Source: Limnothrix sp. FACHB-406
GTDB lineage: Bacteria; Cyanobacteriota; Cyanobacteriia; CACIAM-69d
Length of the DNA stretch: 64,000 bases
NCBI RefSeq assembly: GCF_014698235.1
Contig: NZ_JACJSP010000005.1
Coordinates: 62,001-126,000 of the forward strand
Direction of reading: 5' to 3'
Of the stretch, positions 53,592 through 57,866 are shown in pieces (position 1 is the first letter of the stretch; each line of letters opens with the position of its first letter). The position numbers and the translations under genes are program-made. Below the pieces are notes generated by a model. That model searched no databases. It saw only the letters and a list, made by a program, of their open reading frames with translations, and had not been told where the DNA came from.

Positions 53592-54068
53592 ATGCCTCGT
53601 CATCTGCCTGCGAAAGCGGATTCCGATCTGATTGATTTAACACCTGAAGAGGCAATCATTGCGATCGGGTTAATCACCATGATCGTTGATGAGTCCGTCG
53701 AAGACATCGAGGCCGAATTGCTGGCCGATGTTGCAGCGGAATTTGAACTGTTTGAAGACTATTCCGATGACGAACTCGTCGAGATAGTCGATAAAGTGGT
53801 TGCAGCCTCGGAAGCCTCCGATGTGCAGACCCTCCTGGGCAGTGCCTTAACAGTGGTCACCCAAAATGAAGATTTGGCAGAAATTGCCCTAATCACCGCC
53901 ATTCTGATCGTGGCCGCCGATGGCGAAGTCCCCGAATCAGAAGAGGACTACTTGAACGAGTTGCAAACGGCGCTGGGCGTTTCTGACGAGCGTGCCAACG
54001 AAATCGTCGAGGCTCTCTTCAGCGATGAAGAGGACTTTGAGGAAGACGAGGAGGAAGAGGAAGCCTAG
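53592..54068 (+). CDS. acidic TerB-like protein
   Basis: A 158-residue very acidic helical protein. It contains two TerB-like half-units: EEAIIAIGLITMIVDESVEDIEAELLADVAAEFE (first part) and EIALITAILIVAADGEVPESEEDYLNELQTALG (second), the latter with the DGEV...E-E pattern of TerB metal-binding helices. It ends in a run of Asp/Glu (EDFEEDEEEEEA). Cytosolic. Function unknown; TerB relatives are linked to stress and metal resistance. Followed by a good terminator. Confidence 0.72.
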   Translation: MPRHLPAKADSDLIDLTPEEAIIAIGLITMIVDESVEDIEAELLADVAAEFELFEDYSDDELVEIVDKVVAASEASDVQTLLGSALTVVTQNEDLAEIALITAILIVAADGEVPESEEDYLNELQTALGVSDERANEIVEALFSDEEDFEEDEEEEEA

Positions 54069-54136: not shown

Positions 54137-54165
54137 GCCTGCTCTTCCCTCAGGGCAGGCTTTTT
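54137..54165 (+). terminator. rho-independent terminator of the TerB-like gene
   Basis: GCCTGC and GCAGGC with a 12-base loop, directly followed by TTTTT, 68 bases after the stop codon. Classic intrinsic terminator layout. Confidence 0.8.
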
Positions 54166-54269
54166 GCAATTTAGATGAAGACAAAGTTGATACCAGTTGC
54201 CTGAATTTCGGGAAATTCGCTGGGCTGAAGGGGTTGCCCCGAGGGCGGTTCAGGGAATTTTAAAGAAAA

Positions 54270-54530
54270 GTTGAGGAACTTCCCCAGTGACCCCACTTCA
54301 TGGAAAACTGGTTTCCAGATAAAAAGGGGTCACCCAAATAAAAGCCCTTGTTCATTCAACCTGTGGGGATTTTGCCCCGTTAGGTACCAGCTCAATGGGG
54401 TTCAGCTCGTACTGTTTAAAGACCCTTCACCAATAGACTTCGCTCTCGGGCAAGCAGGGAATTATTCATATAAATCCCGCCCTCAATTTGAACAGGAGCG
54501 CTGCCCGGATGGGTGGCGCTCTTGTTTTGA
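54270..54530 (+). ncRNA. candidate structured small RNA, unknown family
   Basis: The 380-base gap between the terB-like terminator and the SNF2 gene holds a nested stem: GTGACCCC/GGGGTCAC (54287-54294, 54326-54333) enclosing TGGAAA/TTTCCA (54301-54306, 54312-54317). Next comes GGGG-6-CCCC (54365-54378), and finally a strong 11-pair hairpin ending in TTGTTTT (54496-54529). A terminator with no gene in front of it on the plus strand argues for a non-coding transcript of up to ~250 bases. No match to 6S, tmRNA, RNase P, SRP RNA, Yfr1 or Yfr2 could be recognised by eye. The 5' end is a guess. Confidence 0.4.
54496..54529 (+). terminator. strong intrinsic terminator with no plus-strand gene upstream
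   Basis: GAGCGCTGCCC-GGAT-GGGTGGCGCTC: 11 pairs (9 Watson-Crick, 2 G-U) on a 4-base loop, then TTGTTTTG. It also lies 17 bases past the SNF2 stop on the other strand, but the T-rich side faces the plus direction. Confidence 0.7.
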
Positions 54531-54545
54531 CTGGAATTTTGGAAT

Positions 54546-57866
<3,321 letters not shown>

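Follow-up and report, generated by a model that had tools for sequence, protein, structure and literature searches.

A probable stand-alone small RNA gene in Limnothrix as a diverged copy of a cyanobacteria-wide RNA family

The window, namely the whole stretch of 64,000 nucleotides that was analysed, comes from a Limnothrix-like cyanobacterium whose SNF2 protein is 99% identical to that of Limnothrix sp. CACIAM 69d. A plus-strand terB-like gene and a minus-strand SNF2 helicase gene are convergent onto the interval considered here (Table 1), in which an earlier note had placed an independent plus-strand small RNA gene. As that note had stated, the terB-like gene possesses its own plus-strand terminator, composed of GCCTGC (54137-54142), GCAGGC (54155-54160) and a run of five T residues, and no plus-strand gene is present between this terminator and the next one; the only open reading frame there (92 codons, 54271-54549) was judged to be mechanical. 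Two minor features of the upstream flank were also observed. A short way upstream of the RNA gene, 26 bases of the window (54204-54229) match the DNA of another cyanobacterium (G015:C104) at 96% identity, and CACIAM 69d carries approximately 170 extra bases between the terB-like stop codon and the sequence that directly follows it in the window.

Table 1. Features of the interval between the terB-like and SNF2 genes (window coordinates).
Feature	Position	Strand	Remarks
terB-like gene	53592-54068	+	Pfam TerB, score slightly under the cut-off
Terminator of the terB-like gene	54137-54165	+	separate; outside the RNA gene
Putative upstream promoter element TTTTAAAGAAAAGTTGAGGAACTT	54258-54281	+	two half-sites about 11 bp apart; conserved across the family
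Inverted repeat (nested stem)	54287-54333	+	judged to be no functional RNA stem
Candidate extended -10 element ATGG-AAAACT	54300-54309	+	family consensus CTGnCANNCT
Predicted sRNA transcript	54316-54529	+	about 215 nt, with an uncertainty of a few bases at the 5' end
Signature hairpin	54325-54349	+	AGGGGTC (54325-54331) with AGCCCTT (54343-54349)
Second hairpin version	54395-54432	+	GGGGTT (54397-54402) with GACCCT (54421-54426); genus-specific extension
Intrinsic terminator	54490-54529	+	17 pairs (4 G-U), tetraloop, then TTGTTTTG
SNF2 helicase gene	54546-57866	-	

The interval ends in a strong hairpin that faces the plus strand, as had been noted before, although it consists of 17 pairs, including 4 G-U pairs, and not of the 11 counted earlier; a simple terminator scan does not report it, its stem being longer than the loop and T-tract pattern allows. 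The SNF2 stop codon lies less than 20 bases from this hairpin (arms 54490-54506 and 54511-54527), and the hairpin could accordingly be read as serving only to terminate transcription of the convergent SNF2 gene, with the remainder of the interval as spacer. However, TTGTTTTG follows the hairpin on the plus-strand side only, and the structure would be a poor SNF2 terminator because its minus-strand reading has no T-run after the hairpin. Such a reading would also leave a conserved promoter, an upstream hairpin and a whole RNA family unexplained and is contradicted by the family model matches and the covariation described below, so that it is extremely improbable.

Comparison with close relatives revealed that the sequence from 54258 to 54529 is kept far better than neutral sites. 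In CACIAM 69d, all 59 bases of 54258-54316 are identical (100%), the body of the RNA (54317-54489) is 95.4% identical, and the terminator, at 97.5%, differs by one base, whereas the sequence immediately upstream of the RNA gene and the fourfold sites of SNF2 are 88.6% and 86.6% identical, respectively. A more distant relative (L013), with 79% identity in SNF2, retains the blocks TAAAGAAAA..TGAGGAA, TTCATGGAAAACT and AAA.GGGGT.A..ATAAAA.CCC together with a terminator of different sequence and equivalent form. The conservation in relatives that the earlier note had asked about is thus found in both genomes. In L013, the gene upstream of the RNA, where the window has the terB-like gene, is a presumed DUF3493 gene, and the RNA is therefore not part of the terB-like gene.

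Beyond these relatives, a plain DNA search matched just one near relative, and the matches of an exact motif pattern were confined to the genus. A covariance model built from three window-type copies (R1) gave weak matches in other cyanobacteria (242 genomes, E values from 1e-3 to 0.09), which singly were near chance level and on inspection proved mostly to be clear homologues of each other; two of them, L040 and L041, were left out as apparently unrelated. From twenty of the sequences found in this way, and without any window-type copy, a second model (R2) was built. It matched the window at 54257-54372 with 56.0 bits (E 6e-7 in a 94-kb search), a score that is mildly inflated since its source sequences had first been picked by their resemblance to R1, and it matched CACIAM 69d and L013 with 62.1 and 65.8 bits, respectively. 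R2 matches were present in 251 of 388 cyanobacterial genomes of the class, belonging to 121 of 160 genera, and often occurred twice per genome. On the other hand, none was found in the 41 genomes, mostly small and apparently Prochlorococcus-like, of the order to which G006 belongs, which served as the negative control. By these matches, the predicted RNA is common to most cyanobacteria outside the Prochlorococcus-like group. No copy on a phage contig or plasmid was found in the search.

The most distinctive part of the family is a short signature hairpin, UGGGGUC..GACCCUA with the loop AGCCnAUAUAAA, AUAAAUCCCUGUGAAUACU is a further conserved element, and the family anatomy ends in a strong terminator, the perfect stem of which is often 15-20 bp long compared with 10 bp at most in shuffled sequence. 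In the window, the hairpin forms six of its seven pairs, all seven being formed in CACIAM 69d. Covariation among relatives, a further check named in the earlier note, was detected for this 7-bp stem: in an alignment of 72 rows (67 distinct sequences) fitted to a structure that was itself taken from an unfitted MAFFT alignment already showing double changes, 99.4% of the cells are paired and five of the seven pairs include double changes. Double-change cells numbered 37, compared with 6.6 in shuffles, the covariation score was reached by none of 500 shuffles, and every slid version of the hairpin collapsed in the same test. A model of the hairpin alone (R3) scored 28.5 bits in the window (E 7e-4) and 36.1 bits in CACIAM 69d. 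The one broken pair means that the window copy could be on its way to decay, against which its conservation relative to CACIAM 69d speaks.

Of the 72 copies, 51 have an ATG that overlaps the hairpin, which would suit a stretch that codes for a short conserved peptide. This ATG is missing in the other 21 copies, however, and the first stop is reached at many different codons; differences in loop length (10, 11 and 12) put the copies out of frame with one another, and substitutions track base pairing. The reading frame from the hairpin ATG is broken, with no frame conserved among the 72 copies, and a peptide gene is hardly to be credited.

The family alignment also outlines a putative promoter. 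Across the family, an upstream element (AATATAAAGAAAAcATTAcGAAAT) consisting of two half-sites approximately 11 bp apart keeps its place and its sequence in the two types of copy, referred to below as copies A and B. Downstream of it, the motif CTGnCANNCT, which occupies conserved columns of the 72-row alignment and falls in the window within a stretch, TTCATGGAAAACT, that is identical in L013, is probably an extended -10 element. The start of the transcript was placed approximately 6-7 nt after this -10 element and its 3' end at the terminator; transcription would accordingly begin probably near 54316 and not at 54270 as first proposed. Relative to this start, the tandem upstream repeat lies at about -35 to -58 and replaces a conserved -35 box, which is the usual layout of an activator-dependent promoter. 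The upstream element is therefore likely to be the site of an activator of the response-regulator type, and an OmpR-type response regulator may be guessed because the repeat has a spacing of approximately 11 bp. Many copy-B promoters (for example L083, L088, L094 and L095) have TTAAGGAAACCTTAAAAA in place of TAAAGAAAACATTACGAAA, which is a tandem repeat of another flavour and perhaps a differently tuned activator site.

The nested stem stressed by the earlier note is present in the sequence, with outer arms GTGACCCC (54287-54294) and GGGGTCAC (54326-54333) around the inner arms TGGAAA (54301-54306) and TTTCCA (54312-54317), yet it does not appear to be part of a functional RNA fold. Four of its eight outer pairs are broken in L013, and it straddles the predicted start; because the promoter revealed by the family alignment overlaps both the 5' arm and the inner stem, it most likely lies outside the functional fold and is probably no RNA structure. 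The segment 54270-54530 has a more stable fold than any of 200 shuffles (z -4.3), and this nested stem accounts for part of the difference; from the predicted start onwards, z is -2.7.

The copies of the family occupy two gene contexts. Copy A is located in the order mltG-yqeG-RNA-proB, the open reading frames around the loci examined falling into clusters of 35 (yqeG), 32 (mltG) and 27 (proB), where the names of these neighbours, given by sequence recognition, are presumed. In ten loci, copy B directly follows a DUF3493 gene, and the window copy is assigned to this type because the copy of genome G002 (L013) is downstream of DUF3493. These conserved contexts are independent support for the homology of the family. 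The window genome contains two copies: besides that of the window, a canonical copy A (L049; G000:C10:16902-17018, minus strand; R2 score 86.9 bits) has mltG and yqeG upstream, proB downstream and a terminator with a perfect 16-bp stem. Its DUF3493 reading frame, the counterpart of the gene that precedes copy B in other cyanobacteria, is found on another contig (G000:C9:121523-121786), which suggests that the Limnothrix lineage has undergone a rearrangement; beside the RNA, the terB-like gene occupies the place of DUF3493.

With these contexts, two further explanations can be weighed. In most of its loci, copy A is followed by proB in the same orientation (27 open reading frames cluster as proB), and it ends in a terminator, as would be expected of a 5' leader with a riboswitch-like attenuator that controls read-through into proB instead of a stand-alone RNA. 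In five copy-A loci (L066, L069, L072, L074 and L078), however, proB is lacking or the next gene is on the minus strand, copy B is not followed consistently by any one gene, and both the window and L013 have a convergent gene next, so that a leader is very improbable. Furthermore, a gene in the same direction always lies upstream, and copy B often begins less than 200 bases past the DUF3493 stop codon, so that the RNA could derive from the 3' untranslated region of the preceding mRNA (DUF3493, yqeG or the terB-like gene). The upstream gene nevertheless varies from copy to copy and from lineage to lineage, the promoter element being constant, and in the window the terminator of the terB-like gene itself precedes the RNA; this origin is very improbable. 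Homology, the two gene contexts, the shared promoter sequence, the covarying hairpin, the terminator and the lack of a conserved reading frame together argue for 54258-54529 as a stand-alone small RNA gene and a diverged copy B of a cyanobacteria-wide family, with a probability of roughly 0.85. The small RNA gene originally proposed is strongly supported by conservation, by covariation and by homologues throughout the phylum that share promoter sequence and terminators.

The RNA stretch matched no family in the Rfam search that had been suggested (Rfam 15, gathering score), and ten homologous loci gave no match even with a relaxed threshold. In the open literature, no name for this RNA was found, though it may be listed elsewhere as an unnamed transcription unit; a full-text search of open papers for the hairpin sequence found nothing, and no relevant literature on a proB- or DUF3493-linked small RNA was found. 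Among known RNAs, PsrR1/SyR1, a 131-nt photosynthesis-regulatory small RNA of cyanobacteria, resembles the family in its size class, stand-alone gene with a terminator and wide cyanobacterial distribution. The published SyR1 primer sequences (PMC2662882) align to the family no better than to shuffles, however, and SyR1 is located between fabF and hoxH, whereas the family lies beside yqeG/proB or DUF3493. Yfr1 and Yfr2 are phylum-wide small RNAs, as is this family. The Yfr1 motif was not found in the RNA, and unlike Yfr1 the family was not found in the Prochlorococcus-like genomes; Yfr2 was rejected by comparison with a provisional motif, which makes this comparison a lead only, and by the lack of an Rfam match. 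Yfr2, too, occurs in several copies per genome (PMC2662882).

Sye_sRNA1 of S. elongatus (approximately 200 nt) is likewise a widely conserved and abundant cyanobacterial small RNA, but it is reported to lie downstream of psbD or cobB (PMC6091082) and is set apart by this context, since the recurrent neighbours here are mltG, yqeG, proB and DUF3493. NsrR1, located between alr1709 and all1710, is confined to heterocystous strains and their close kin (PMC6166021) and differs in distribution and neighbours from a family that spans 121 of 160 sampled genera. 6S RNA (RF00013) is small, structured and approximately 200 nt long, as is the RNA of the window; the 6S RNA of this genome is at G000:C3:32415-32620, and Rfam gave no such match at the window RNA. 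A further candidate, ncl0160, was rejected as a likely peptide gene.

As a best guess from the sequence, the RNA would be a trans-acting regulatory small RNA under a response regulator. In the proposed mechanism, an activator of the response-regulator type would bind the tandem repeat (54258-54281), transcription may start near 54316 by means of the extended -10 element, and an RNA of approximately 215 nt would terminate at 54529. The hairpin loop and its flanks are the most constant exposed part of the RNA, and the conserved loop together with the single-stranded flanks may act in trans. Trans-acting regulatory RNAs most often work by base pairing with mRNAs, which would be the most likely form of this action, at about even odds, with protein binding as the alternative. 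An unnamed family found in most cyanobacterial lineages outside the Prochlorococcus-like order, with two fixed places and one shared activator site, might constitute a phylum-wide post-transcriptional regulator, of which copy B in relatives of Limnothrix would be a longer, two-hairpin form; this wider picture merits about half confidence. If transcribed, it adds a small RNA family that is conserved together with its promoter, approaches Yfr1 and Yfr2 in breadth and is absent from Rfam, and it makes a profile available, along with two conserved loci and a putative regulator site, for work in model strains.

The copy of this genus is lengthened and probably bears two versions of the hairpin. Before the terminator, the window-type RNA is approximately 100 nt longer, and the extension contains what looks like another signature hairpin, AATGGGGTTCAGC..TTTAAAGACCCTTCACC (within 54395-54432). 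Its likeness to the family consensus exceeded that of 300 of 300 shuffles in the window, 299 in CACIAM 69d and 286 in L013, and L013 shows one compensatory change from G-C to A-U, while in the window and CACIAM 69d R3 found only the first hairpin. A duplication of the hairpin in the genus-specific extension is likely from these comparisons, and the lengthened copy offers an example of such an RNA diverging after duplication. In the minimum-energy fold of the predicted transcript over 54316-54430 of the window, the arms of the first hairpin pair with those of the second, and the two hairpins could thus compete with long-range pairing.
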